Assembly: GCA_029261095.1 (NCBI GenBank) | Contig: JAJDBZ010000381.1 | Location: 1-35,931, forward strand | DNA from: Candidatus Omnitrophota bacterium | Lineage (GTDB): Bacteria; Hinthialibacterota; Hinthialibacteria; OLB16 | Direction: 5' to 3' | Length of the DNA stretch: 35,931 nucleotides | In this document: in pieces, positions 2,276-35,231 of the stretch | Position numbering within the stretch: the stretch's first letter is position 1 | How the letters are laid out: each line of letters opens with the position of its first letter | Notes under the pieces: generated by a model | The model's database searches: none | What the model saw: only the letters and a program-made list of their open reading frames with translations | What the model was told of the DNA's origin: nothing | Made by a program: the position numbers and the translations under genes

Positions 2276-4030
2276 ATGACTTTGCGGAAAACCTTACTCA
2301 CGCTCCTGGTCTTCGCGCTCTCACCCGTGGCTTGGGGAGAAGAGAAAGTCATCTTCGCCGAACAAGGGCGGGATGTCGGCGATGGCAATGTTCTTTACGA
2401 CACCCCCTACGACCCGAACGCAGTCGAGGAAGTCTCTTTCTATTACCCCACCATCACCCACCCCTTCTATGAAATCGTGGTCCCTCTTGGAGATTGGGAT
2501 GAAGGGAAGTCGGCGACATTGAAGGAAGTCCGTGTCAACGGCGTTTTATGCGAGGCGCCTTATGTCTTTGTGGATGGCTACTCCCATGTGCAGAGTGCAT
2601 GGATCACAAGGGACAGCCCAACCGCGAAGAACGTGGTAATCGTGGCACGTTCCCTTTGGCATAACGATTCCGAAACGAAGATCGAGATGGACATCACCGC
2701 TCAGGATGAGGACGGAGAATCTCAAACCATCACGAAGGAATTCACCGCCACCGCTCCATCGAAGGGAGGCGGTCCCGAAGGTTGGAAGCGGTACCAGTCG
2801 CTCGCCTTACATGAGCAGGTGGGACTCGATCGCGAGAACGAGCCGGTCGAATTCTCACTGGCCGCTCGGGCCGAAAACTGCTGCGATCTCGCGAAAGAAC
2901 TCCGCCTCTTCGAAGTGAGCGAGAAAGGGGATCTCATCCCAGTCGGTGTGCAAACCTTCGACGAGCAATCGTACAAGGGGACCCCGCCGGGAACCTCAAA
3001 CGAGAGCTACCTCCAGCACCCCAGCGAATCGCTTTCGGCGGTTTTTTTGGCGAGTGTCCCAGCCAACGATTCGAAGGTTTTTGTGGCGGTCTATGAAAAC
3101 CCGGACGCTCCCGAACCATCCGCTGTGGAAACCGACTTATCCGTGGAGGGGCCGGCAGTGGGCGCGGTGGTGGAGAACGAGTTCTACCGAGTCAAGCTCG
3201 ATGACAAGTGCGGTCAGATCGTCTCGTTCGAATTGAAGGGGCGTGAGGACAACCCGGCCCCGAAGCTGACCAACTCGCTCAGTTTGGCCGCGCATTGGAA
3301 CCCGGATTCCTTTTCCGACAATGGGAAATGGGGGCACACCTTTGCCTGGGACCCGCCCGAGAAGACGGTGGTTTCCGCGCGAGGTCCGATTCTGTTCCGT
3401 GTCACCAACAGCGGGAGAATGCCCGATTGGACACCACAGGTCCATGCCTCGGTGAGTTACTCCTTCTATGCTTCGAACCCTCATGTCGCGGTGAAAACCA
3501 TTACCGAAGTTCGCGATCCCCTTAACGCCAACGCGATCCGGAACGGCGAACTCGTTCTCGATTCCCACCTCATCACCCACTTCGTTTGGGGTGAACGCAA
3601 TGGAGAGATCCACCAGATTCGCACCGCGCACGGACCGAACTGGCAGGACGAGTGGGGGACACGGGTCGATCAGGATGTCCGGTGGCTGGCAATGACCCAT
3701 GAACTCGACGATTACGGTGTCGGAGTCTCTGTCCAAAACTCGATGGCCTTCAACCCGGAGCGTGGCCAGGCAACCACGCACCGTCCCGCTTACTACCTCT
3801 ACTACCACCACTTCTGGAGTATCCCGGTGACCTACTGTACCCGCGGGTGGCTCTATCCTTTCAGCGATTATCAGCGGGGTCCAAACATCCCCGCTCATCC
3901 TGGATCGACCTATGTGGAGGACTGCGCCTTTGTGCCCTTCTATCTTGGAGAAGAGGGTAGTCGGTACAAAATCATCGAGTCCGTAAGCAAACAGTTGAAA
4001 CATCCTTTGTCGCAGAGGTGGGGCCGTTAG
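2276..4030 (+). CDS. Secreted protein of unknown function, tandem paralogue of the upstream gene
   Basis: 584-aa ORF with signal peptide (MTLRKTLLTLLVFALSPVAWG), starting 2 bp after the upstream stop. Shared blocks as above. Confidence 0.85.
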   Translation: MTLRKTLLTLLVFALSPVAWGEEKVIFAEQGRDVGDGNVLYDTPYDPNAVEEVSFYYPTITHPFYEIVVPLGDWDEGKSATLKEVRVNGVLCEAPYVFVDGYSHVQSAWITRDSPTAKNVVIVARSLWHNDSETKIEMDITAQDEDGESQTITKEFTATAPSKGGGPEGWKRYQSLALHEQVGLDRENEPVEFSLAARAENCCDLAKELRLFEVSEKGDLIPVGVQTFDEQSYKGTPPGTSNESYLQHPSESLSAVFLASVPANDSKVFVAVYENPDAPEPSAVETDLSVEGPAVGAVVENEFYRVKLDDKCGQIVSFELKGREDNPAPKLTNSLSLAAHWNPDSFSDNGKWGHTFAWDPPEKTVVSARGPILFRVTNSGRMPDWTPQVHASVSYSFYASNPHVAVKTITEVRDPLNANAIRNGELVLDSHLITHFVWGERNGEIHQIRTAHGPNWQDEWGTRVDQDVRWLAMTHELDDYGVGVSVQNSMAFNPERGQATTHRPAYYLYYHHFWSIPVTYCTRGWLYPFSDYQRGPNIPAHPGSTYVEDCAFVPFYLGEEGSRYKIIESVSKQLKHPLSQRWGR

Positions 4031-5473: not shown

Positions 5474-6247
5474 CTAGAAGGATTTCGAATGTCTTCCGCT
5501 AATTCTGAAATCGATATCGCCTGGATTGACGATGCTGCACATCCCACAGACTCGCGAAAAAACCGGGTAAGTAATTTGTTCCTCAAGTTCTTTCATGTTG
5601 AGGTTGCTGGTCACAATCAGGGTTTTATTTTCCGAATACCTCTGATCGATAATCGAGTAGGTCTGCTCGCGCACAAAATCGCTGAGACGTGTAACCCCCA
5701 GGTCGTCAATCACGAGAATATCGACCGAGACGAGTCGATTCAGACGGGAATTCTCCTCGTCCGAAATCGATCCCCCGACACGGTTCCGAAAATCGCGGAT
5801 CAAGGAAGCGGAGTTGTAAAAAAGTCCGGTGTGCCCTTGTTCGACCAAGTCGATCAACGCAGCAACAGCGAGATGAGTCTTACCTGTTCCAGCCGCACCG
5901 AGCAGGAACAGTCCCCCTTTTTCTGTGGAGACATCGAACTCTTTGACGAATTTTCTGACCCGATGGGAGGCGTTTCTGCGCTGATCGGTATCGGCCTTGA
6001 AATTGTCGAGAGTCTTGGATTGGTATCGTTTGGGAATGTTTGCTTTCTTTAGGCGCTTTCGAATCTGCCGATCGGCCAAACAATGGCAGATCTGAACATC
6101 GTTATCGGATACGATATAACCGTAACCATCACAGTCCGGGCACTCATTCTCGACTGTTTCAGTCGGTCCCCTCTCCGCCAGGGATTGAATATCCCTCAGG
6201 AAGTTCAACACCTTTGGGTCTTCCCCAATCTTTTTGAACTCGTTCAT
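5474..6247 (-). CDS. DnaC/DnaI-like AAA+ ATPase (putative helicase loader) with N-terminal Cys cluster
   Basis: Walker A GAAGTGKTHLAVA, Walker B VDILVIDDLGV, N-terminal CPDCDGYGYIVSDNDVQICHC metal-binding-like motif, C-terminal SRVCGMC. The start overlaps the upstream ORF by 89 bp, so it may lie further downstream. Confidence 0.85.
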   Translation of the reverse strand: MNEFKKIGEDPKVLNFLRDIQSLAERGPTETVENECPDCDGYGYIVSDNDVQICHCLADRQIRKRLKKANIPKRYQSKTLDNFKADTDQRRNASHRVRKFVKEFDVSTEKGGLFLLGAAGTGKTHLAVAALIDLVEQGHTGLFYNSASLIRDFRNRVGGSISDEENSRLNRLVSVDILVIDDLGVTRLSDFVREQTYSIIDQRYSENKTLIVTSNLNMKELEEQITYPVFSRVCGMCSIVNPGDIDFRISGRHSKSF

Positions 6248-9787: not shown

Positions 9788-10197
9788 AGCGAACGGTTTC
9801 GCTTCCCCACAAGAGGGCAGAGGTTTATCATGCATTCATGGACCCGATTCTTCTTTCGGGTTGGTTGAATGTCCCGTATGTCAGCACCGGGCATGGGGAA
9901 CTGCACCTTTTTGAAATCGAGGATTGGAACAAAAATCATCCCTGGAAGATCCGATGTTTTATCCTGGACAGCATTCGGGATGAGAGTTTTCGCATCGAAA
10001 AGGATGAGATCGGCGATCATCATAAACCGGGTCTCGATCTTCGGTTAGTGGATTCCGAACAGGGGTGCGAACTTAGTCTGGAGTGGGAGGATTCCTACTT
10101 CGACCGACTCGCGAAAGAACTGCTCGACCCTCGCGGACACCTACGATTGGGCCACCTGATCGCGGTCGAGACAACCGATGCTTCGGAAACCCCCTGA
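9784..10197 (+). CDS. SRPBCC/AHSA1-like domain protein
   Basis: MKRTVSLPHKRAEVYHAFMDPILLSGWL resembles an AHSA1 N-terminus. Start overlaps the upstream stop (ATGA). Confidence 0.6.
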   Translation: MKRTVSLPHKRAEVYHAFMDPILLSGWLNVPYVSTGHGELHLFEIEDWNKNHPWKIRCFILDSIRDESFRIEKDEIGDHHKPGLDLRLVDSEQGCELSLEWEDSYFDRLAKELLDPRGHLRLGHLIAVETTDASETP

Positions 10198-12803
10198 TGA
10201 GCCTCAACCCCTACGCGAAAACAGTCTCCGATAGAAAACGGAGAACAGGGTTTGTTGTCTTTTCCATCCTCTACTGGGCTCTCTTCTTTCTCTTCGCCGA
10301 AACCACGATTGTCGGAGATGGCATCCACTACCACACCTTCTTCCCTGCCCTTCTCTCCGACCGCAACCTGAACCTGGCCGATGAGTTTGTCGCCTATCCC
10401 CAGGGTTCCCCCTTCGCCATCGGGTTCAAACTTCTTCCCACGGGTTATGCCGCGAACCCCTACCCCTTCGGGTCCAGTCTCCTTCAACTCCCGTTCCTCA
10501 TCGGCGCCTGGGTTTACGATCGAACGGTCGGTCTCGCCTCGGAGATAGGAATCCATGATTTTCTTTCCGCGCCCTATCTGGTCGCCCAGATCCTGTCGAC
10601 TTGGTTCTATTGCTGGATCGGATGCTTCTGCCTTTGGCGCATTCTCGAAAAACTATTTCGGACCGATGATTCATTCTTGATCGTCCTTTCGATGGTGACC
10701 GCCACACCACTCTTGAACTACCTGATACACGATCCCGCTTATTCCCATGCCTATAGTTTTTTCGCGGTCAGCTTTTTCTATTTCCTGTGGTTCTGTGTTT
10801 CGAGAAAAGATTCCTTCGCTTCCGGTCTACTGATCGGCGCGGCGGGTGGGTTGGTCTTCCTCGTGCGATGGCAGGATGTTCTCTTCCTCTTTCCGGCGGC
10901 AGTTTATTCGATCGGAATGGGCCTACGGGGTGTGGAAACCGAAGGAGAGTCGACGCGTCTCCGGCAACGCTTCGCTTTCGTCGCGGGGGGCCTCATCGGT
11001 TTCCTCGCTTGGATCTCTCCCCAACTCATCTACTGGAACATCCTTTATGGGTCACCGGTCCTTGTCCCGCTGGGGGAAAAGATCTATAGCGAGGGGTACT
11101 ATTTTCAAGAATCCCTCTTCTCCAAAAAGAACGGTCTTTTCAAGTGGCACCCGCTGACCCTGGCGGCCACTATCGGACTCATTTGGATGGCTTACAAAAA
11201 ACGGTGGCTCTGGTGGATTTTGCCCGCGATGATCCTCCAGTTTCTTTTCATCGGATCGCTCGCCGATTGGACCGGGTCCTATGCCTTCGGACAGAGACGC
11301 TGGGTGAGCGGTCTCCCCTTTTGGGCGATGGGTCTCGCGGCGCTCTTTTCAATCCGGTGGAAACCCTGGCGGTGGTTGTTGCGCGCCGGAATCCTCTACC
11401 TCATCGTGTGGAACTTTCTAGTCTTTCAAGTCTGGCATGGCGGGTTCTTCGAGGGGGGGCGTCACAGCACCAGCAAAGTCTTTTGGATGCTTCAGAACAC
11501 ACCAGAGTTTATTTTCGGAGACCTCTTTCAGCTCGCTTTCTTCCCCAACCTGATGGAAGAGGGTTCCCCCCGACGCCTCTCTCTCTTCCTGCTCGCTTTC
11601 CTCCTGACACTCCTCACCGCTTCGGCGGCGATCGTTTTCTTGAACCGACCCCTTGGCAGGAGAGCGGTCATGGCCCTGGCGCTTCCGATGACGGTCATCC
11701 CCCTTGTGCTGGGTGGAAGTTTTGTCCTGGCGGATCGAACGAGCGCGGTTTCACTTCAAGCCGATCTCATGGCGACTCTGTCCACCCCCGGGCAATCCCT
11801 TCCCCTGATCCCAGTGAAAAAGGGGAAGGCCGAGATTTACGCTGGTGTGAAAAGTTCGTTGATACTCGGACCGAAGCGGAAAACCTCTCTCCGAATTCAA
11901 AACCCACAAGTGGTCTCCGAGTTGAATCTGATTGGGTACCTCTCTTCAGCGGCGCCCGAAATCGAAAAGGGACAGGAGTGCCTGCGAATGGTGATCTCCG
12001 GGTTGGAAGGGAAGGAATCGAAAACGGTCCATGTGGGGGAGGAATTCGATTTTCCCTCCCCCGAGTTCGGAAGGATTCGCGAAGCGAGTGGCGCCCTCGA
12101 CCCTCAGACAGTGGAACTGGATGAGGGGGGAACCGTTTATTTTTCCTATGGTGTCGAGTTTCCCTTTTCCTCGCAGGTCGTGCGGGCGGTTACCCTCGAA
12201 AACCTCCTCCCCATGGGAGAGATCGGAATTGAGGCGGTTTCCTTAATCCCGATGAAATTTGAACGGGATGAAATAAGCGCGGTATCACCTGAAAGTCTTG
12301 TCGGTGGTCCCGCCGAGTTGAATCTGAATCCCGTTTACAACGATTCCATCGCTGACCTCGCGCCTCCATTGGGATTCATCCCGGGTGCCACTCTGGAATG
12401 GCGAGGGATTCCCTTTTCAATTTCGGATTCGACCGGATCAGCCTGCCTAAACACAGGAATCGAGCCCCTCCCCCTGAGTTTCTCGACCCCTGTGCGGCCC
12501 GTGGAATGCCAGGCGATTCAATTCTTGCTGACCGAGGAGGGAGCTTCCCCCGGGGATGAGGGACCGATCGCCACTCTACGACTTCATTTTTCGGATGGTG
12601 GGTCGGCTGGCGAGACGGTTTACACCTCCGATCTAAAGGGTGACTATTGGTCGGTTTCAACCAGTGAGGGTGGCCGGCCCGGGTTGTATGTGAAAACGGT
12701 TTTGGTCCCCAGCATGAGCGGCCCGCTCATCGGCTTGGAAATTGAACGCGATCACCAAATCGAACGGGCCTTGGTGATTCTTGCCGCGACAGCGGTCCCT
12801 TGA
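10197..12803 (+). CDS. Polytopic membrane protein, probable GT39/ArnT-type glycosyltransferase
   Basis: ORF 10083..12803; start at MSLNPYAKTV, overlapping the upstream stop. Many TM segments followed by an approx. 340-aa soluble C-terminal region. Confidence 0.7.
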   Translation: MSLNPYAKTVSDRKRRTGFVVFSILYWALFFLFAETTIVGDGIHYHTFFPALLSDRNLNLADEFVAYPQGSPFAIGFKLLPTGYAANPYPFGSSLLQLPFLIGAWVYDRTVGLASEIGIHDFLSAPYLVAQILSTWFYCWIGCFCLWRILEKLFRTDDSFLIVLSMVTATPLLNYLIHDPAYSHAYSFFAVSFFYFLWFCVSRKDSFASGLLIGAAGGLVFLVRWQDVLFLFPAAVYSIGMGLRGVETEGESTRLRQRFAFVAGGLIGFLAWISPQLIYWNILYGSPVLVPLGEKIYSEGYYFQESLFSKKNGLFKWHPLTLAATIGLIWMAYKKRWLWWILPAMILQFLFIGSLADWTGSYAFGQRRWVSGLPFWAMGLAALFSIRWKPWRWLLRAGILYLIVWNFLVFQVWHGGFFEGGRHSTSKVFWMLQNTPEFIFGDLFQLAFFPNLMEEGSPRRLSLFLLAFLLTLLTASAAIVFLNRPLGRRAVMALALPMTVIPLVLGGSFVLADRTSAVSLQADLMATLSTPGQSLPLIPVKKGKAEIYAGVKSSLILGPKRKTSLRIQNPQVVSELNLIGYLSSAAPEIEKGQECLRMVISGLEGKESKTVHVGEEFDFPSPEFGRIREASGALDPQTVELDEGGTVYFSYGVEFPFSSQVVRAVTLENLLPMGEIGIEAVSLIPMKFERDEISAVSPESLVGGPAELNLNPVYNDSIADLAPPLGFIPGATLEWRGIPFSISDSTGSACLNTGIEPLPLSFSTPVRPVECQAIQFLLTEEGASPGDEGPIATLRLHFSDGGSAGETVYTSDLKGDYWSVSTSEGGRPGLYVKTVLVPSMSGPLIGLEIERDHQIERALVILAATAVP

Positions 12804-24287: not shown

Positions 24288-24940
24288 TCAGAAAGGTGCT
24301 CCCGCACCAGGTCCGACCAGATGGTGTATCCCTTGTCAGTCAAATGGAGACCGTCATTGAGAAGTAGGTCTGGTATCGGTTTCGCATCTTCGCCAATCAT
24401 CGGGGTATCGATGTCGATGTAGATCAGATTCTCATCCTGAGTGGTGTACTGCTCGATCAATTGGTTCGCTTTCCTCATCTCATCCACGAGGGTCCAGCGG
24501 GAGAGACTCGGTTTGATGCAGACATAGAGCAGGCGGGTGTCGGGGAGATGATCCTTGATGATCCCGGCAAAGGTTTTGTAGTCCTCGAAAACATCCTTAG
24601 CCGATTTTCCGCTAGCAATATCGTTGTCACCCGCATAGAAGACGACGGTCGCGGGTTTGTACGGGAGAAGGATGCGGTCTGCAAAATTGATCGAGTCGGC
24701 GATCTGAGAACCGCCGAAACCGCGATTGATGACAGGGAGATCGGGAAAGAATTTATCCAGATCCCAGAACCGAATGCTGGAACTCCCGACAAACAAGATC
24801 CCATTCTGAGGAGGGGGGTTGGCTTTATCCGTCTCCTCGAAAAATTGGATTTCATCCTCCCAACGAGTTGAGTCGTGTTCGGCATGGCACATAAGTGTTG
24901 GGATGATTAAACTGATGATGGAAAGAGCAATGAATCTCAT
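24284..24940 (-). CDS. Secreted SGNH/GDSL hydrolase
   Basis: Signal peptide; ILFVGSSSIRFW (block I), INRGFGGSQI (block II), FYAGDNDIASG (block III), NDGLHLTDKGY (block V). Confidence 0.9.
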   Translation of the reverse strand: MRFIALSIISLIIPTLMCHAEHDSTRWEDEIQFFEETDKANPPPQNGILFVGSSSIRFWDLDKFFPDLPVINRGFGGSQIADSINFADRILLPYKPATVVFYAGDNDIASGKSAKDVFEDYKTFAGIIKDHLPDTRLLYVCIKPSLSRWTLVDEMRKANQLIEQYTTQDENLIYIDIDTPMIGEDAKPIPDLLLNDGLHLTDKGYTIWSDLVREHLSE

Positions 24941-27864
24941 GATCCTTCTCCTTTGAGGTAACCGATCAGATCCGCCAAATCTTGGCGGGACATATTCTTT
25001 TCCAGTTCCTGAGGCATCAGCGACAGGTTGGTTGAATAGATGTCTTCAATATCAGACCGAAGAATGGTTTCTTGCTCTCCTTTGGCTCGGCGGATGGTGA
25101 TGCTGGTCGGGGTTTCAGAGGCGATCAGTCCGGTCAGGACATCTCCATCGACTGTCTCGACGACGTAGTTGGTAAAACTCGGGATAGTCTCGTGATTCGG
25201 GATGAGGATGTGAAGGAGCAACGATTCTTTCGGCTGAGTCCGGATTCCTGTCAGGTCAGGTCCGACCTCTGCCCCTTCCCCATCCAGGAAATGGCACTGG
25301 GCGCAATGCACCTTGAACATCTCGAAACCTTGTTTGGGATCGGCATTCAGGTCGAGGACCGACTTGTAATCCTCAAAAACCTTTTTTCGATCAGGGTTCT
25401 TGATCCCCTCAAAAATCTTCTTGGCCCGCGATTGGATCTCCGCATTCGAACTCTTGAGCAGACGGTTTCGTTGGAGGGGTTCGATGGATGTGGATTGGAT
25501 GTCACCCTTCTCGAGCGCGGTTAGAAAAACGGGTAGGTGGTGCCCCCGGGTCACCACACTGGAGATAATAGTATCGCGCACCGGCGGAGTGAGCCCTCTC
25601 CAACGGTCGCCATCGGATAAAAATTGTCCGACTTCCCCTTCGGGCTTCCTTGCTAATGCCTTCGTGGACGCGATCTGGAGATCTTGTGGAACGAAGGGGC
25701 TGACCAGGTCGAACAATGACTGGCCCACTTTCTGAAACGAGGAGTATTGGAGGAAATCGACTCCTGCCAATCGTTCCTCCATAGGCGCCTCCGAGTCCTC
25801 GGCGACCTGTCTCGCCGATTCAAGCAGTTCCTGTATTCTCGAGGCTGTCTCGACATCATCTCCTGCTAGAAACACAAGGAGATCGGAGTGACCTCGGGCT
25901 TCAGGTTTTTTCTGGAGCGGTTCCAGAAGTCCGAGAATCGCGACTCGTTCCCAGGCCGCATCTTCAGGAGCAGTGGAGACGGTTACTTGGGAGGCGCGTT
26001 TTCGAATTCCTTCCAGAGACTCTTGATTCCCGAGGATGCCACAGAGTGAACGGAGAAACTCTGCCCGGCCTGGACTGCTCAGGTCGTCCCAGTCAAGTGA
26101 CAGTGAAAGCAGTTCACCTGATTTGTCCCCGAGCGAGGAGAGGACAGCGGCCCTTGTCCAAGGATCTTCGACACCGCGTTCCGCGATCGTCGCTAAGGCC
26201 TTCGTCTTTCCATCCAGATCGAATGCGCCGAGGGTCAGCGCGGCTTGGAAACGGACACGATGATTGGAATCGGTTGAAAGCGCGAGGATCCTTTCACTGA
26301 GGGCATCGCTGGCAATCGAGGGGTGGCGTTCTGCCAGGATCAGAGCATTCTCTCTCACACCTGGGTGCGCATCCGCAAGGGCTTCAAGCATTTCACTCTC
26401 GGTCAATGAGTCGAATCGTTCCAGCAACCAAAGTGAAAGGACTCTCCCCTGGGGCGTCGCCGCTTTTCCCACCAGTTCTTTCACTTCACTTACCCATTCA
26501 TCGGGTTCTCTTTCGATTAGTAGTCTTTGCGCCGTCTCTCTCCACCATGAGTTCGGATTATCCAAGAGCTCGGTGAGCTGAGCGGTTGTCATCTCAGCCG
26601 GAAACTTCTCCGGAATAGAAGAGGCGCCTCCGGAACTGTTGGATTTGAAACGATAAATCCTTCCGAGGTCCTTGCCCGTATCGAAGTCTGTGATTTTGCG
26701 GATAGATTCGGGGAGATACGTTGGATGCTCGATGGTTTTGCGATGCATGTCGCAGACGTAGAGCGCCCCATCCGGCCCATTCGCGAGATTGACAGGCCGG
26801 AACCAGTTGTCGGTCGAGGCCAAAAACTCAGTCTTTTCGCGCGGGCGTTCGGCAGTGTAGGAGGCTCCATGATCTTTCCTAACAGCCCGATGTATCAGAT
26901 TGCCGGTTGGATCGCAAACAAAATGGTTTCCATAGAACTCGGGGGGAAGGGCAGAGCCTCGATAGATCTGGAGGCCACAAGCGGCAGTGAAGGTGTGAGC
27001 GTGGGAAATCGCGGTTGTGATATTGTCGCTCATAGGGTAAAGACGGACCGGTTCCCCATCGCCATAAAGATCCTGAACTGTTTGGGTATATGCGAAAGAG
27101 GGATTACGGGAGAGATAATGAAAATCGACGACCACCTGTTCGGCGGGTTTCCGGTTCGAACAGACAAAACGGTGGCCGTAATCGTCGAAGGTATGCCCAA
27201 ATTGCGCTTGACCGGGGATGATCTGGACCTCGAAGGTTTCTGGATGAAACCGAAAATCGTTTCTTTGGGTCTCCACAGGTTTGCGGTCGGGAAAATTCGG
27301 AGAGGTGATGGCTCCGCCACTTAGCCCGTTGGTCAGATAAATCCAACCATCAAGGCCAACAGTCGGGTGGCTGACTCTGAGCTGGGTCGAACCGCCCTTG
27401 GAAAAACCGGTCAACCAAACCTCTCTGAGGTCGGCCTTCCCATCTCCATCGGTGTCTTTCAAAAACAACACATCGGGAGCGCATGTGACGATCACTCCAC
27501 CCTTCCATGGGAGCACTCCATTAGGGAAAGTAAAATCTTCCGCAAAAGTTGATCGCGTTTCATAGATTCCATCTCTGTTCCGGTCTTCCAATCGTGCGAT
27601 TCTCCCGGCTGGTGGTTCGCCTTCAGGGGGGCCGGATGGATATCCAATGTTTTCAACAACGTAAAGTTTCCCCCACTCGTCGAAAGCAAGGGCGACTGGG
27701 TCCAAAACCGTGGGTTCAGCGGCCACGATTTCGGCATTGATATCAGGATGAAGATGGAAATGTTTGAGGCTCTCTTCAGGAGAAACCGGGTTGGCTGCTC
27801 CGACAGATAGGTCGCAGAGAATCGTAACGATAAGGGAGAAAACAGTTGTCTGTGAAAGATTCAT
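24937..27864 (-). CDS. Secreted PVC-type dehydrogenase (sorbosone-dehydrogenase-like propeller, HEAT-like region, C-terminal cytochrome c)
   Basis: VALAFDEWGKLYVVENIGYPSGP, LEDRNRDGIYETRSTFAEDFTFPNGVLPWKGGVIVTCAPDVLFLKDTDGDGKAD, NGPDGALYVCDMHRKTIEHPTYLP, C-terminal CAQCHFLDGEGAEVGPDLTGI haem-binding CxxCH. Confidence 0.92.
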   Translation of the reverse strand: MNLSQTTVFSLIVTILCDLSVGAANPVSPEESLKHFHLHPDINAEIVAAEPTVLDPVALAFDEWGKLYVVENIGYPSGPPEGEPPAGRIARLEDRNRDGIYETRSTFAEDFTFPNGVLPWKGGVIVTCAPDVLFLKDTDGDGKADLREVWLTGFSKGGSTQLRVSHPTVGLDGWIYLTNGLSGGAITSPNFPDRKPVETQRNDFRFHPETFEVQIIPGQAQFGHTFDDYGHRFVCSNRKPAEQVVVDFHYLSRNPSFAYTQTVQDLYGDGEPVRLYPMSDNITTAISHAHTFTAACGLQIYRGSALPPEFYGNHFVCDPTGNLIHRAVRKDHGASYTAERPREKTEFLASTDNWFRPVNLANGPDGALYVCDMHRKTIEHPTYLPESIRKITDFDTGKDLGRIYRFKSNSSGGASSIPEKFPAEMTTAQLTELLDNPNSWWRETAQRLLIEREPDEWVSEVKELVGKAATPQGRVLSLWLLERFDSLTESEMLEALADAHPGVRENALILAERHPSIASDALSERILALSTDSNHRVRFQAALTLGAFDLDGKTKALATIAERGVEDPWTRAAVLSSLGDKSGELLSLSLDWDDLSSPGRAEFLRSLCGILGNQESLEGIRKRASQVTVSTAPEDAAWERVAILGLLEPLQKKPEARGHSDLLVFLAGDDVETASRIQELLESARQVAEDSEAPMEERLAGVDFLQYSSFQKVGQSLFDLVSPFVPQDLQIASTKALARKPEGEVGQFLSDGDRWRGLTPPVRDTIISSVVTRGHHLPVFLTALEKGDIQSTSIEPLQRNRLLKSSNAEIQSRAKKIFEGIKNPDRKKVFEDYKSVLDLNADPKQGFEMFKVHCAQCHFLDGEGAEVGPDLTGIRTQPKESLLLHILIPNHETIPSFTNYVVETVDGDVLTGLIASETPTSITIRRAKGEQETILRSDIEDIYSTNLSLMPQELEKNMSRQDLADLIGYLKGEGS

Positions 27865-27910: not shown

Positions 27911-29638
27911 TTAGTCAACCAGTTCCTCTCCACCTAACTCTTGAACAAATTTGGAGAAATGCGTTATGCCGAAGTGTTCCCGCAACACGATATCGGCTAA
28001 TCCGAGTTTTTCACGGGCCGAAATGACTTTCTCTCGGTCTTTAGGAGTCAGCTCTCTTGAGTCGAGGACTTTACCCAGGGCCTGGGTCGATTCGGTCAGA
28101 GGTTCTAAAACATGGCCAGCAACTGCCTCGAATCGACCAGCCGTATTTCCGGATAAGATCCCAGACAGGCCGGTGGCCTTTGACCGAAGTTCCATCCCCC
28201 GGGAGGTGATCAAAAACTCGTGGAGATCTTTCGAATGGTCTGTCCCTACCATCTTCATAATCGCCAGAAATCGGTGAACTTTTCCGTTGATCTCCGCGAG
28301 AGAGAGTTGGATGACCGAATCGGCCAAGTAAGAGAAATCAAGACCCGAAGTCGAAAGCGCTCCGCTAATCTCAGCCGATTCATTGAGTGCAAGCGTCGTG
28401 ATGCCCGCCCTTCTGAGAAGAAGAACCAGGAGATGGACCATCTCGCGAAGTCGTTGGGAATCGTCAATTGAGGTACCCAAGTCGGAAATCGAATCAATGA
28501 CCATACAATCATAATGGTTACGGAGAATCCTGAGGGTTAGGTCTTGAACCAGCTTTTCTGGAATCAGACCGACCGGGGAAATGTATTTATAATCAAGTTG
28601 TTCTTTTTCTCGATAAGCCTTTAGATCGAGGCCGAAGGAGTCGGATGCTCCAAGAAAACGTTCTTCTGTTTCTTGGAAAGACAAATGGAAAGCACGTTTG
28701 CCGGAACTAAGGTTTGAGTGTAGAAAATGACGACCGAATGTGGTCTTCCCCGTCCCTGAGTACCCGACGAGCATGTTCAGGGATGGGGTCTCGAATCCAC
28801 CCCCAATCAGGGTGTCCAGGCCAGGCACTTCAGTCGGAATTCGGGTTGGGATAAAACATTTCGGAGCAAAGACTTTTTCAATATCGACAGGGCGGAGGTG
28901 AGGAAACACCTGAATGCCATCGGTCTGAAACTCGAATGGGTGGACCCCTGATATGTGTTTTTGCCCACGCGTTTTCCGGATTTGAATGCCGCGCTCGTTT
29001 TCGACCGCTGATGAAGACGGTTGGTTCGTCAATCTAATTGAAGCATCGACCGCATATTCCTCGAAAGAAACCGACTGCCCCGGGCCTGGATCGAGTTCCT
29101 TTACTAAGATGGTATTGACCCCTTTAATCTTGAGATTGTTGAGAATGCGATGGAGAATCTCGCGGAGTTCAGATTCTTTATTGGTGACCCGTTTGAAATG
29201 GCTGACACTGTCAATCACCAATCGTTTTGCCCCCATGTCATCGACGATCCGCCCGATCAGGTCATCCTTTCCGGAGAAACTCTCGACAACCTTTCTCGGG
29301 TCAGTCCAAATTACACGGAGTCGGTTCTCTTTTTCGAGAGCAGCGAGATCGAACCCATAGTCGGCATATTCCTGATAGATTTGTGTAGGAAACTCTTCGA
29401 ACGCCACCAGAATTCCGGGCTCGTTGTAGATCTTCGCTCCATGGTGAAGGATCTGAACGCCGACCGTGCTTTTACCGGACCCAGGAGGCCCCTCGATCAG
29501 AAGGGAGTTGGAACGATTGATCCCACCGGACAGAAGGTGATCGAGTCCCTTGATCCCGGTAGGCATCCGGCGTGCGAGAAGGTCGTCTCGTACCTTCTGG
29601 GCTCCAGTTTTAGTCTCGTGATCCCGCATTCTATTCAT
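27911..29638 (-). CDS. Double-RecA-domain KaiC-like ATPase
   Basis: Two Walker A motifs (IEGPPGSGKST, VGYSGTGKTT), two Walker B motifs (LVIDSVSHF, MVIDSISDL), each with a KaiC-type GLDxLxxGG start (GLDHLLSGGI, GLDTLIGGGF). Confidence 0.93.
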   Translation of the reverse strand: MNRMRDHETKTGAQKVRDDLLARRMPTGIKGLDHLLSGGINRSNSLLIEGPPGSGKSTVGVQILHHGAKIYNEPGILVAFEEFPTQIYQEYADYGFDLAALEKENRLRVIWTDPRKVVESFSGKDDLIGRIVDDMGAKRLVIDSVSHFKRVTNKESELREILHRILNNLKIKGVNTILVKELDPGPGQSVSFEEYAVDASIRLTNQPSSSAVENERGIQIRKTRGQKHISGVHPFEFQTDGIQVFPHLRPVDIEKVFAPKCFIPTRIPTEVPGLDTLIGGGFETPSLNMLVGYSGTGKTTFGRHFLHSNLSSGKRAFHLSFQETEERFLGASDSFGLDLKAYREKEQLDYKYISPVGLIPEKLVQDLTLRILRNHYDCMVIDSISDLGTSIDDSQRLREMVHLLVLLLRRAGITTLALNESAEISGALSTSGLDFSYLADSVIQLSLAEINGKVHRFLAIMKMVGTDHSKDLHEFLITSRGMELRSKATGLSGILSGNTAGRFEAVAGHVLEPLTESTQALGKVLDSRELTPKDREKVISAREKLGLADIVLREHFGITHFSKFVQELGGEELVD

Positions 29639-29672
29639 TCCCTTCCCTTCGGGGTTTGTGCATCTCTAGCCC

Positions 29673-31391
29673 TCATGCTCGCCCCAAGAGACCGACTCTT
29701 TCGATTTCCGGCAAGCTCGAAACTCCGCTGACCACGAGATCTCTCGCGACATCTTTCAGGGGTACCATCCCTTCTTTAGTCGCAACACGTTTGATTTCAA
29801 GATTAGCTCCTCGTTCCACGATGAGCTCATGAATGGATTCCTCCACCATCAAGAGTTCGTATATCCCTTGTCGGCCGCGGTATCCCGTTCCGCCGCATTT
29901 CGCGCAGCCTTTGGGGACGTGGATCTGATTGAGGTCAGCCACCTGAAGACGGGCCTGTTCGGTTTTGGTGGGTGCTTTAGCTTCTTTGCAGTCGGCGCAA
30001 AGAACACGGACGAGTCTTTGTGCAAGAACGGCACGGAGAGCTGCAGTGAGCAAGTAGGGTTCGACTCCCATGTCGATGAGACGAGTAATTGCGGATATCG
30101 CGTCGTTGGTGTGGAGTGTGCTGAACATCTTGTGGCCGGTCAGGGCTGCCCGGCAGGCGATTTCGGCCGTTTCGAAATCTCTGATCTCACCGACGAGGAC
30201 TGTGTCCGGATCCTGCCTGAGTATCGAACGAAGTCCAGATTGGAAGGTCAACCCAGCTTTGGGATGGATTTGAACCTGTGTAATCCCATCCATTTCGTAT
30301 TCCACAGGATCCTCGAGTGTGATGATATTCGTGGATCCGCGGTCCAAACTTGCAATCGAAGCGTAGAGCGTCGTTGTCTTGCCGCTACCCGTGGGGCCAG
30401 TCACCAATATCATTCCCAGTGGGAGGTCCACAACATTCTGCCACTTTTCGAGCAATTCGGGCGGCATCTTAATGTTCTCGAGTTCGAGCAACGAATCGTC
30501 TTTGGTTAGCAGGCGGATGACGATTTTCTCTCCCCATCTTGAGGGTAAGGAAGAGACACGACAGTCGACCAGCCCTTTTATGGGGTGTTCGAAGGATGTC
30601 CGTCCATCTTGCGGAATTCTACGTTCGGCAATGTCCATTCCCGAAACAATCTTGATTCGACTGATTAATGTTGGAGTCATCTCTTCGGGAAAAAGGCATG
30701 CTACTTGAAGGATTCCATCGACCCGAAATCGGACCGTCAGTCGTTCGTTGCCCGGTTCGAAATGAATATCGGTAACATCCAAATCGGCGGCTCTTTGAAG
30801 AATCTGTTTAGAAAGGTCTGTCGCACCGATTTCCTCTTTCATGACCTCTGGGAAGAGAGGTTTCACGCCACTCTCGAAGACGTTTCCAAACAACGACTTT
30901 TTTTTGTCATCCGTGGTTTCTTTGGATTTCAGCTCTTTGGTCAGAGTGCCATACCAGCGTTGAATCGCGGCATGTATCTCGGACTGTGTGGAGACATGGA
31001 TGTCGAGTTTACATTCCGATGCGATCCTCAAATCCTCGATCGCTCGCTGGTTATCCGGACAGGCGATTGCGACCTCGAGGACTCCCGCCTCTTTTTTTAT
31101 GGGGAAGGCCTCGTACCGGCGAGCCATGCGGTCGGGTATGAGCAGTAGTGCGGAGGGTTCGGGTTTGACTTTTCTGAGATCGATTGCGGGATGAAAAAAG
31201 TAGTTTTCCAGGGTCTTGAGAATCTCTTCGTGGGTGAAAACCCCCTCTTGGAGCGCGACAGCATCGAACGGAACCGACGAACCGTTGGAGGAACCGATCA
31301 GTTCCTCTACTACGGTTGGCTCTAACAGACGCCGCTCAGTAACGATTCTCAGGAAGACGTCGTCTTCGCTGGCAACTTCGAGTGTCATCAT
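29673..31391 (-). CDS. GspE/PilB-family type II secretion / type IV pilus assembly ATPase
   Basis: ORF 29673..31436; start likely at MMTLEVAS (31391 or 31388). VTGPTGSGKTTTLYASIA, TLEDPVEYEMDGITQVQ, GLTFQSGLRSILRQDPDTVLVGEIRDFETAEIACRAALTGHKMFSTLHTNDA, CADC...CAKCGGTGYRGRQGIYELL. Confidence 0.95.
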   Translation of the reverse strand: MMTLEVASEDDVFLRIVTERRLLEPTVVEELIGSSNGSSVPFDAVALQEGVFTHEEILKTLENYFFHPAIDLRKVKPEPSALLLIPDRMARRYEAFPIKKEAGVLEVAIACPDNQRAIEDLRIASECKLDIHVSTQSEIHAAIQRWYGTLTKELKSKETTDDKKKSLFGNVFESGVKPLFPEVMKEEIGATDLSKQILQRAADLDVTDIHFEPGNERLTVRFRVDGILQVACLFPEEMTPTLISRIKIVSGMDIAERRIPQDGRTSFEHPIKGLVDCRVSSLPSRWGEKIVIRLLTKDDSLLELENIKMPPELLEKWQNVVDLPLGMILVTGPTGSGKTTTLYASIASLDRGSTNIITLEDPVEYEMDGITQVQIHPKAGLTFQSGLRSILRQDPDTVLVGEIRDFETAEIACRAALTGHKMFSTLHTNDAISAITRLIDMGVEPYLLTAALRAVLAQRLVRVLCADCKEAKAPTKTEQARLQVADLNQIHVPKGCAKCGGTGYRGRQGIYELLMVEESIHELIVERGANLEIKRVATKEGMVPLKDVARDLVVSGVSSLPEIERVGLLGRA

Positions 31392-31493
31392 GTTTCCCTG
31401 TGAGTGAATACCATCCCTCAGGGTGTATGATATCAAAGTTATGTCGTTTTAGTCAAGTTACACGTAAAAGCAAATCTTGATGGATAGGCAATA

Positions 31494-32240
31494 TTAGGTA
31501 TGTTTTTTCGAATGGAGCACATTCGTTTGAATTTGGATAAGTTCGCGGATTCCTTTCTCCGCTAATCCCAAGAATTGTTCCAGTTGGTCTCGCGAAAACG
31601 TTGTGGATTCGCCAGTCCCCTGAATCTCCACGAACTCACCGTTTTCGGTCATGACCACATTCATGTCGACACCCGCCAAACTGTCCTCCGAATAGCAGAG
31701 ATCGAGGAGGGGGTTCCCGTCCACCAATCCGACACTGACCGCTGCAATTTTTTCGCGGATGGGCCACTTCTCGAAAGCACCGGCAGAATGCATCAGTTCA
31801 CAAGCCTCCCAGAAGGCCACCAGTGCCCCGGTGATCGCCGCGGTCCGTGTCCCTCCATCGGCCTGAATGACATCGCAGTCAATGTTGACAAGACGCTGGC
31901 CTAAGGCCGCAGGATCAGTGATGGCCCTTAGCGAACGACCGATAAGACGTTGGATCTCAGCGGTCCGTCCTTTCGGTTTGCCGCCATCTCGATTGATCCG
32001 GCTTTTGGAAGACTTTGGAAGCATGCCATATTCCGCAGTCACCCAGCCTTGACCATCGGGTAACCAGTTGGGTGTGCTCTCCGAAAAGCTGGCTGTACAC
32101 AGAACCTTGGTCTTTCCAAACTCGATCCAACAAGAACCCTCAGCAGTTTCGAGAAAGGACTTTTGAATCTTGATAGGGCGTAGTTCGTCTGCTAGACGAC
32201 CATCTTGGCGTGGAGTCATTGTCATAGTGTCTCGGGTCAA
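31494..32240 (-). CDS. rph: Ribonuclease PH
   Basis: FGKTKVLCTASF, GWVTAEYGMLPKSS, EIQRLIGRSLRA, CDVIQADGGTRTAAITGALVA, DLCYSEDSLAGVDMNVVMTENGEFVEIQGTGE. Confidence 0.96.
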   Translation of the reverse strand: MTRDTMTMTPRQDGRLADELRPIKIQKSFLETAEGSCWIEFGKTKVLCTASFSESTPNWLPDGQGWVTAEYGMLPKSSKSRINRDGGKPKGRTAEIQRLIGRSLRAITDPAALGQRLVNIDCDVIQADGGTRTAAITGALVAFWEACELMHSAGAFEKWPIREKIAAVSVGLVDGNPLLDLCYSEDSLAGVDMNVVMTENGEFVEIQGTGESTTFSRDQLEQFLGLAEKGIRELIQIQTNVLHSKKHT

Positions 32241-33091
32241 CCTCCAACAAATTCAAGTTCGACGGGGTTGGGGATGAGTCCTTTCTCATAGCCTTTCCGT
32301 AGAAGTGTACGGATCGCTTCTCTACCCCGGTCACCATAGTCAAGTGTCCAGTGGTTGACATACATCCCGACAAACTCATCCGCCAAATCCGCTTCCATAT
32401 CTCTTGCCCAGGACAGGGCATATTGAACCGCCTCTTCCCGGTGATCGAGCGAATACTGGATTGATTCTGTCAGTAGATCGGAAACCTCTTCCATGGTCTT
32501 CTTCCCGAAATCCTTGCGGATAGTGTTGGCGCCTAGTGGAAGGGGGAGTCCTGTATCTTCCTGCCACCAAACCCCAAGATCGACAATCAGTTTGAGACCC
32601 CTTTGGTTCCAGGTGAGTTGCCCCTCGTGAATGATGAGACCCGCATCCGATTTACCACTTTCGACATGCTCGAAAATCTGATCGAATGGGACGACCTCAT
32701 AGTCGAATTTCCCGATGCAGAGCGAAAGGGCCAGGAACGCGGTTGTCATGGTCCCGGGGACAGCAATCTTGTGGTCTGCCAGATTATCAAGAGTGATATC
32801 CTGGTTGGTGACCACCATGGGGCCATATCCATCTCCCATACTGGAACCGCTTGGAAGCAGGGCATACTTGTCCAGAACACTGGCGTAAGCATGGACACTA
32901 ATTGCGGTGATATCCAGTTCCCCTTTCATCGCTCGGCGGTTCAGGGTTTCGATATCCTGGAGGACATGTTCGAAGGAGTACCCTCTCTGGTCGATCTTGT
33001 CCTTCGCTAAGGCATAAAACATGAATGCGTCATCTGGATCGGGGCTGTGGCCCAGGGTCAAATGATGGGTCATGGTCGAATTTCTCTCCAA
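32237..33091 (-). CDS. mqnD: 1,4-dihydroxy-6-naphthoate synthase-like (futalosine-pathway menaquinone biosynthesis)
   Basis: LTLGHSPDPDDAFMFYAL, LDITAISVHAYASVLDKYALLPSGSSMGDGYGPMVV, LPLPLGANTIRKDF. An alternative start is MTHH at 33073. Confidence 0.9.
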   Translation of the reverse strand: MERNSTMTHHLTLGHSPDPDDAFMFYALAKDKIDQRGYSFEHVLQDIETLNRRAMKGELDITAISVHAYASVLDKYALLPSGSSMGDGYGPMVVTNQDITLDNLADHKIAVPGTMTTAFLALSLCIGKFDYEVVPFDQIFEHVESGKSDAGLIIHEGQLTWNQRGLKLIVDLGVWWQEDTGLPLPLGANTIRKDFGKKTMEEVSDLLTESIQYSLDHREEAVQYALSWARDMEADLADEFVGMYVNHWTLDYGDRGREAIRTLLRKGYEKGLIPNPVELEFVGG

Positions 33092-33194: not shown

Positions 33195-35009
33195 TCAGAA
33201 TCGATAGGTCGCCTCAAGTCCCACATTGAACGTGGAAGACTCGTTTTCGTCAAATGTATCAAAGAACTGCTTCGAATGAGAAACGGTGAGGGAGAACTGG
33301 AGGCTTTCTTTGGGGATATAATCGACAGAAAGGGATGAGTATGTCCCTGTAAAATCAGCGATCCGGGGAAAGTCGAAGAGATAAAATGCGGTCGCGCCTG
33401 TCTCTCCTTCGGGGAACCATCGGTGGTAAACATCCTCAAACAGGTTGACTCGCCATTGGTCGTTAGGAAACCAGGAGACCGAAAAATTCATCCCTGCTTC
33501 ACGATAATCTCCATCCGATTTGTCGCGCGGAAGACGTGGGTCGAGAGGGATGTCATCGGGGACCTCTCCAAAATGAAAGACCTGACCAAATCGCGGCTCA
33601 ACCGTTACAAAGAGTTCAGTTCCCTTTGAGTACTCATAGAGCCGGGCCAACTCAGCCCGGAGGGCGTTCGAATTGAGGTCTTCAGTCGTCGGATAGAAAC
33701 GAGGTTCCATTGTAAGCCGCCATCCTTTGGAAAAGGAATCGTTCAATCTCCTCCTACAAGTCGCAGTCCAGACAGAAATGAATTCGTCTTCCTCGCTCCC
33801 CGGTTGGTTGTAGTCTCGGTAGTAGAAATCCCCATCGAAATCGAAGCTGACGTCATCGTCCAGGGTGAAGACATGAGTCAGAAGACGATGCTCCCAATAG
33901 TCCTGGCTACTGTTATCGGAATCGAAACGGCTCTCGCGTGTCAACTCATACCCGATATCCACCCACTTATCGAACCCTTCTCGATAGTTCCATTCCGAAA
34001 TCAGAGTTCCTCGAATAAACCCATCGTCTCTGTCGGCTTCATATTCATGCCGTAGGTCTATTTCGAATCCACGCTGCCACTCCCACTCGTCTGAGAGTTT
34101 CTGAATGTACCTTGCTTCGAAGTCGTTCTGGACAAAAGAATCTCCTTGGTCATTTTGGAAGACTTTCCAGATCGATCGATTGTCCCACCAGAATCGATCC
34201 CCACTTGGCAAGTCGCGCTTCACAGTGAAATTCATCTCCTCGTAGAAGAAGTCCTGGTTCAATTCGATTTCGTTCTCGAAGTATAAGTGGCGCTCAGAGT
34301 CGAGGTCTCCGGATTCGACATAGTTCCAACTGACGAAACGTCCTATTTGCCTTTCCGTTCGCCTCGGCGCCTCGAATTCCGAAGTTGCATGGAAGACAAA
34401 CTGGTCGTAGTCGACTCCTGTACGAAGTGTCTGGTTGACCTCAAGGTCGGGGTAATGCGGTTTCATATCCTTGCCCAACGAATCCATGGTCGAATCGGGG
34501 GAGATCGAAATCTCTTCCGACTCCAATTGGAGAAGCCATGCCTCATAGTCGAGGAGAGTTTCATCAGTTACATCCGCCAAAAGATCGGGTGCCTGTTCAA
34601 GTATGGATTTGTCTTCTGTCGGAATCGACTCCAACAAACGATCGATCTTGTCAAAACTATCTTCGGTTTGTTTGAGAAGAACACTTTTGGAAGGATAAAG
34701 CAGAGCCCGGTCTCCCACCCTAACAGCGGACATAGTCTGTCGGTTTTCCTCACGGACATTAATATCGGATTCTGAGAGTTTATTGGTCACTCGAAAATCT
34801 ACTGGTCCTTGCCTCGATTGTATGAAACCCAGGGATCCAGTCGAAAGTTCGGTGGTAACCGAGAACCTGAGGGTCGCTTGTCCCCGGTCTGGCCGGACCT
34901 CTAGGACCCTCCCAGGTAGGAGGTCGGATTGGGTCCAGGCCGATTCAAGAACCAGGGTAATGGAAAGGATTGTGATGACTGCTAGCGCGGACCGTGCATT
35001 CACAAACAT
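33195..35009 (-). CDS. Putative secreted/outer-membrane beta-barrel protein of unknown function
   Basis: ORF 33195..35096; internal start MFVNARSALAVITILSITLVLESAWTQ gives a signal peptide. C-terminal half has alternating aromatic strands and ends ...VGLEATYRF (terminal Phe). Confidence 0.7.
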   Translation of the reverse strand: MFVNARSALAVITILSITLVLESAWTQSDLLPGRVLEVRPDRGQATLRFSVTTELSTGSLGFIQSRQGPVDFRVTNKLSESDINVREENRQTMSAVRVGDRALLYPSKSVLLKQTEDSFDKIDRLLESIPTEDKSILEQAPDLLADVTDETLLDYEAWLLQLESEEISISPDSTMDSLGKDMKPHYPDLEVNQTLRTGVDYDQFVFHATSEFEAPRRTERQIGRFVSWNYVESGDLDSERHLYFENEIELNQDFFYEEMNFTVKRDLPSGDRFWWDNRSIWKVFQNDQGDSFVQNDFEARYIQKLSDEWEWQRGFEIDLRHEYEADRDDGFIRGTLISEWNYREGFDKWVDIGYELTRESRFDSDNSSQDYWEHRLLTHVFTLDDDVSFDFDGDFYYRDYNQPGSEEDEFISVWTATCRRRLNDSFSKGWRLTMEPRFYPTTEDLNSNALRAELARLYEYSKGTELFVTVEPRFGQVFHFGEVPDDIPLDPRLPRDKSDGDYREAGMNFSVSWFPNDQWRVNLFEDVYHRWFPEGETGATAFYLFDFPRIADFTGTYSSLSVDYIPKESLQFSLTVSHSKQFFDTFDENESSTFNVGLEATYRF

Positions 35010-35231
35010 CGACTTTTCGCTCTTACTCCTAGGTTCCCGTTCCATCAGATGCCGACTTACGAGGGTCGATTCAGAGTATCGACTGCTCGAAGCCACAACC
35101 AGAGTATGTCCAAAAATACCGAAAAATAAGGAGTGCCGGGTGAAGTTGGAGATCTTTTCAAAAAAACGGCATTCCCGCTTGTTCTATGCGTTTTCTCGGG
35201 GTTATACTCGGTGCGATGAGGAGGGATTGGC

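Follow-up and report, generated by a model that had tools for sequence, protein, structure and literature searches.

In an uncultured Candidatus Omnitrophota bacterium, a gene for a PilB/GspE-type secretion ATPase is directly followed by a gene for a double-domain KaiC-family ATPase, and we give an even chance to the reading that the two form the unit of a rare, patchy bacterial module for the control of a type IV pilus or secretion motor ATPase by a KaiC-family ATPase. Control of bacterial type IV pilus motors is known in few cases, namely by c-di-GMP through the MshEN domain and by Pil-Chp signalling. KaiC proteins are, to our knowledge, widespread in bacteria that have no known clock, and most of them have no known function. 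A recurrent operon of a motor ATPase and KaiC, usually with phosphorelay parts, gives one KaiC clade a concrete and testable function. Our observations suggest that some bacteria control pilus motors with relatives of a clock protein, as archaea do; if this is true, KaiC-type control of secretion motors would be a principle common to archaea and bacteria, not a peculiarity of the archaellum.

The pilB-kaiC locus and its two proteins

The pair lies on the minus strand of the window, by which we mean the whole stretch of 35,931 nucleotides that was analysed, and the gene order in the direction of transcription is mqn (menaquinone biosynthesis, 32237-33091), rph (RNase PH, 31494-32240), pilB (29673-31391), kaiC (27911-29638) and a gene for a large DUF7133/cytochrome c protein (24937-27864). 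The pilB product (572 aa) consists of an MshEN-type N-terminal domain and a T2SSE ATPase domain, and that of kaiC (575 aa) of two KaiC domains and a C-terminal tail of ~75 aa. A preliminary description, made from the sequence, had reported a PilB/GspE ATPase gene followed on the same strand by a double-domain kaiC, which the Pfam domains and ORFs confirmed, the ATPase gene being full-length; the 34 bp that it placed between the two genes correspond to positions 29639-29672 (minus strand), and its PilB start, an in-frame ATG at 31391, holds as well, the enclosing ORF being 29673-31436 (minus strand).

Within the gap, a purine-rich stretch, AAGGGAAGGGA, stands immediately 5′ of the kaiC ATG, and the site scan reported neither promoter-like nor terminator-like sites on the minus strand there; pilB and kaiC are probably co-transcribed. 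The interval between rph and pilB holds a promoter-like site (31427-31456, minus strand: TTGACT, 18 nt, extended -10 TATCAT), of which only the position is suggestive, because promoter-like sites in this region do not outnumber those in shuffled sequences. In G001, a genome of the same family, rph and mqn also adjoin (69% and 80% identity to those of the window, respectively), and rph is followed by tyrS, a tyrosyl-tRNA-synthetase-like gene, at the place that pilB-kaiC takes in the window. Chimerism of the contig was considered and rejected on the basis of this rph-mqn synteny, which covers the upstream side, and of the base composition of the pair, which is near that of its neighbours. Elsewhere, the window encodes an IstB/DnaA-type ATPase of 257 aa (5474-6247, minus strand) and contains four long ORFs (584-906 aa) without a Pfam match at the thresholds used (33195-35096 on the minus strand; 10083-12803, 90-2273 and 2276-4030 on the plus strand). 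A role in anti-phage defence was also discarded, the single weak PADLOC match (mad8, 3e-7) being probably a P-loop match.

The window PilB falls within the T2SSE superfamily, with a domain score far above the cut-off (PF00437, 1.7e-121, 406 versus 24.9 bits) and nucleotide-binding motifs that are intact in the alignment; Walker A, the Walker B region, the Asp and His boxes and both CxxC motifs are all present, and the N-terminal part matches MshEN (2.4e-16). Among solved structures, Thermus PilF and other PilB/GspE proteins come closest to it, and it scores under the equivalog cut-offs for both PilB (524 versus 676 bits, TIGR02538) and GspE (517 versus 630 bits, TIGR02533). In the genome as a whole, five T2SSF genes (PilC/GspF type) and several PilT-type or partial ATPases are encoded, along with six long PilB-type ATPases, one of them cut by a contig end. 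Apart from the window pilB, four pilB/gspE genes are complete (contigs C171, C82, C36 and C24), and each is directly followed by a T2SSF gene, a position that is occupied by KaiC behind the window pilB, with no platform gene alongside.

The window KaiC matches PF06745 in two stretches (1.6e-88, 296 bits versus a cut-off of 26.6), which places it in the KaiC superfamily. Double-domain KaiC proteins are its nearest solved structures, and clock KaiC shares the same fold at 27-30% identity. An AlphaFold2 model, used solely to describe the KaiC fold and the C-terminal tail, shows two confident KaiC domains and, with moderate to low confidence, a tail of two long helices.

Recurrence of KaiC beside motor ATPase genes

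Relatives of the window KaiC were sought in 386 diverse genomes, in 14 genomes of the window's class and in two sets of genomes (395 and 390) that surround the nearest relative's, and further by a pattern scan of GTDB species genomes. Of the 63 distinct KaiC-domain ORFs collected at related loci, many of which are visible for only ~1.5 kb on either side, just four have a same-strand T2SSE gene within 50 bp, namely those of the window, L124, G142 and G333. Restriction of the adjacency to one strain had been named in the preliminary description as an observation that would speak against a functional pairing; instead, the pairing occurs in three more genomes, none of them a close relative of the window's. 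The other 13 members of the window's class are without this KaiC. No relatives of the window KaiC were found on viral contigs, and, among the matches listed, plasmids carry only KaiC proteins of ≤31% identity.

The nearest KaiC found, that of L124 from a deltaproteobacterial groundwater MAG (genome G386), is 43% identical over residues 24-557; its start and the stop codon of a PilB gene overlap. It surfaced when an alignment of the window and G142 KaiC served as query, while a single-protein query with the window KaiC returned no relatives in the genome contig scan. The KaiC of G142, a genome from another, barely sampled phylum, is 39% identical to the window's and starts 47 bp downstream of a gene for a PilT that scores above its family cut-off. 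The window, L124 and G142 proteins make up a clade of only three members (100/98 support) when 38 double-domain KaiC proteins are placed in a maximum-likelihood tree, and the data on them are MAG data. Walker A and the EE pair of KaiC domain 1 are kept in all three; in domain 2, Walker A is kept and the EE pair varies (QE in the window, DD in L124, EE in G142). The fourth case, G333, has a KaiC outside this clade, 46 bp behind CpaF in a Tad pilus operon (L085:4431-16985) that encodes, in this order, CpaB, a secretin, a CpaE-like protein, CpaF, KaiC, a kinase-like protein of 927 aa, two receiver proteins and two TadB/C-type T2SSF proteins; it ties KaiC to a pilus motor ATPase a second time, and apparently independently.

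All three loci other than the window carry phosphorelay parts. Upstream of the L124 pair lie genes for a hybrid histidine kinase (PAS, HisKA, HATPase, receiver and Hpt domains) and a receiver protein, and the L124 KaiC itself has a receiver and an Hpt domain fused at its C-terminus (KaiC-REC-Hpt); in G142 a receiver-domain gene adjoins KaiC, 6-7 bp after it; and in the G333 operon the kinase-like protein resembles a hybrid kinase and has, as read from the sequence, receiver and PAS regions, in addition to which there are the two receiver proteins. No kinase or receiver gene stands beside the pilB-kaiC pair in the window. The recurrent picture is one of a phosphorelay, KaiC and a motor ATPase.

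The window PilB and the KaiC-linked L124 PilB come out as sisters (100/99) in a tree built from 36 PilB/GspE proteins of the window's class and of genomes G386 and G387, and the two are reciprocal best hits within this set. Their ATPase domains are 53% identical, the next ones reaching 46-49%, and the window PilB matches the KaiC-linked PilB of G386 with 488 bits, compared with 381 for the best G386 paralogue and 415 for the best protein of the window's class. Both proteins sit on long branches, with the usual caveat, and the sister grouping persists when the other long rows are removed; for the N-terminal 190 residues alone, the L124 PilB is not favoured from the window's side. Since the two PilBs are reciprocal best hits and sisters, pilB and kaiC share a history in the window and L124. 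The finding of tyrS at the corresponding place in G001, and of no KaiC in the other members of the class, fits a pair that was gained as a unit or lost in all sampled relatives. Taken together, pilB-kaiC looks like a rare, patchily distributed module. The association with phosphorelays, the range of partners (PilB, PilT and CpaF), the missing PilC/GspF neighbour and the absence from the rest of the class were not visible from the window sequence with which the preliminary description had worked.

The L124 PilB (L124:4031-5980) carries an extra C-terminal double zinc ribbon, which is absent from the window PilB. With a crude pattern, the c-di-GMP motifs of MshEN (two of the RLGxxL...G...Q type) are not recognisable in the window or the L124 PilB. 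We considered this erosion as a sign that KaiC had replaced c-di-GMP control and rejected the idea as non-specific, because many PilB paralogues have lost the motif too.

Other KaiC neighbourhoods were set aside as not representing the same system. In L050 (6059-10482) and L081 (5869-10335), KaiC lies between tilS and a histidine kinase gene, and in L083 (1690-4800) directly before a kinase gene; these KaiC proteins form a separate clade with its own conserved neighbourhood and have no T2SSE gene nearby. Two Armatimonadota KaiC ORFs (L125:6001-8649 and L127:6001-8619) encode proteins of 872-882 aa with long C-terminal extensions.

A possible mode of action and its alternatives

Most likely, and by analogy, KaiC would be a partner of the motor ATPase that is gated by a signal and acts on it as the archaeal ArlH does on ArlI. 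That KaiC might be a partner of a pilus motor had been proposed from the window alone; the recurrence of the pairing strengthens this part of the proposal, whereas the likeness to ArlH and ArlI stays an inference, with scores far under the ArlH and FlaI cut-offs. The double ring of KaiC would be placed at or close to the C-terminal ATPase ring of hexameric PilB (or PilT), whose activity would rise or fall with the nucleotide state of KaiC; in the relatives, a phosphorelay (histidine kinase, receiver and Hpt) would set the state of KaiC. By analogy, KaiC may switch PilB, and with it extension or secretion, or PilT, and with it retraction. As no kinase or receiver gene adjoins the window pair, its input would come from elsewhere or from nucleotide sensing alone. 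The window PilB, which comes without its own platform-protein gene, may be an alternative and switchable motor that drives one of the other PilC-type machines of the genome. Adjacency is association, not contact: the genes, their recurrence, the common ancestry of the pair in the window and L124 and the tie to phosphorelays in the relatives are observed, and from these we infer co-transcription, physical contact, the direction of regulation and the machine that PilB would drive. The scheme in its full form, in which a phosphorelay sets a double-ring KaiC that docks onto PilB, PilT or CpaF hexamers and switches extension, retraction or secretion, as a bacterial counterpart of ArlH/ArlI which spread from one phylum to another, is a tentative one and, in our estimate, would rather fail than hold in all its parts.

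The missing pilus neighbours also allow a different reading, in which the PilB-like protein is no longer a pilus motor and has taken on the role of hexameric ATPase partner or output in a KaiC-centred signalling hub: neither the window nor the 13.6 kb of L124 has a PilC, pilin or other pilus gene next to the pair, both PilBs are long-branched and under the PilB and GspE equivalog cut-offs, and that of L124 has gained a zinc ribbon. However, all motor motifs are intact in both proteins, and the partner can also be a PilT above its family cut-off (G142) or a CpaF inside a full Tad operon (G333), and we regard such a hub as unlikely. A similarly low probability attaches to the idea that KaiC regulates pilus gene expression, or another process altogether, and is merely co-transcribed with pilB, so that the two proteins never meet. 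Many bacterial KaiC genes do lie with histidine kinases and without a motor gene, as in L050, L081 and L083, but these belong to other branches of the KaiC tree, and the immediate adjacency of KaiC to three kinds of T2SSE motor suggests a link at the protein level.

A chance neighbourhood of two unrelated genes would agree with the rare and patchy distribution and with the lack of a second case in close relatives. Yet a T2SSE gene stands at the same place in both closest KaiC relatives, the PilB partner of the L124 KaiC is also the closest PilB, and, with ~6-13 T2SSE genes among some thousands, chance adjacency is roughly estimated at well below 1% per locus; this explanation is largely contradicted already, and we hold it to be very improbable. 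Least credible of all, to the point of being nearly dismissed, is a KaiC that belongs to a circadian or hourglass clock which happens to control pili. It has the full-length double-domain KaiC fold in its favour, but the window KaiC lies far under the circadian KaiC cut-offs (192 versus 546 bits, TIGR02655; 299 versus 408 bits, PRK09302), and the clock phospho-acceptor pair S431/T432, judged by eye from alignments, is not kept in the clade (S/Y in the window, A/H in L124, A/V in G142). Moreover, a search for KaiB (PF07689), positive in known control genomes, gave no match in the window's own genome, which is 84% complete, so that kaiB or a kinase gene could be missing from the MAG. The preliminary description had likewise seen no kaiB and had taken this KaiC for something other than a clock protein.

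Comparison with known systems

The two window proteins are members of the KaiC and T2SSE superfamilies and, with scores under the NCBIfam cut-offs, not shown members of the ArlH, FlaI, clock KaiC, PilB or GspE families. With the cyanobacterial clock KaiC, the window KaiC shares two tandem KaiC domains of the same fold; it differs in the extra C-terminal helical tail, in the phospho-acceptor pair that is not kept and in the lack of a detected KaiB. PilB and GspE, which serve type IVa pilus extension and type II secretion, respectively, are matched by the window PilB over its full length and in all motor motifs, but the protein remains under both equivalog cut-offs, and KaiC replaces the PilC/GspF gene. 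The TilS-KaiC-histidine kinase loci (L050 and L081) also combine a double-domain KaiC with a histidine kinase, although their KaiC is of another clade and no motor ATPase is nearby. In the open-licence literature we found no report of bacterial PilB-KaiC or PilT-KaiC operons, an absence that is not thereby proven; a paper on IncP-2 plasmids was rejected as a report of KaiC with PilB, the match being a personal name.

The closest parallels are archaeal. FlaH (ArlH) interacts with FlaI (ArlI) at the latter's C-terminal domain, and the ATPase activity of FlaI is stimulated thereby, most strongly at a 1:1 ratio (PMC6011876); the ArlI/ArlH motor pair is also found in some Chloroflexota (PMC12488501). 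The window resembles this pair in that a KaiC-family ATPase gene lies directly beside a gene for a T2SSE-superfamily motor ATPase. The differences are that ArlH is a single-domain protein and the window KaiC has two domains, that arlH precedes arlI and kaiC follows the motor gene, and that the window proteins score far under the archaellum cut-offs (68 versus 215 bits for ArlH, NF052589; 57 versus 550 bits for FlaI, NF058587); of the window genes scanned, none was recognised as an archaellum gene. KaiC-family genes also occur in archaeal type IV pilus operons, where they were proposed to be regulators (arCOG01171, arCOG01174, arCOG01175 and others; PMC4858521). These operons share with the bacterial module the presence of KaiC-family genes in or near operons of pilus ATPases, and the two are set apart, going by their descriptions, by VirB11/TadC-type components in the archaeal operons and by PilB or PilT with phosphorelay parts in the bacterial module.
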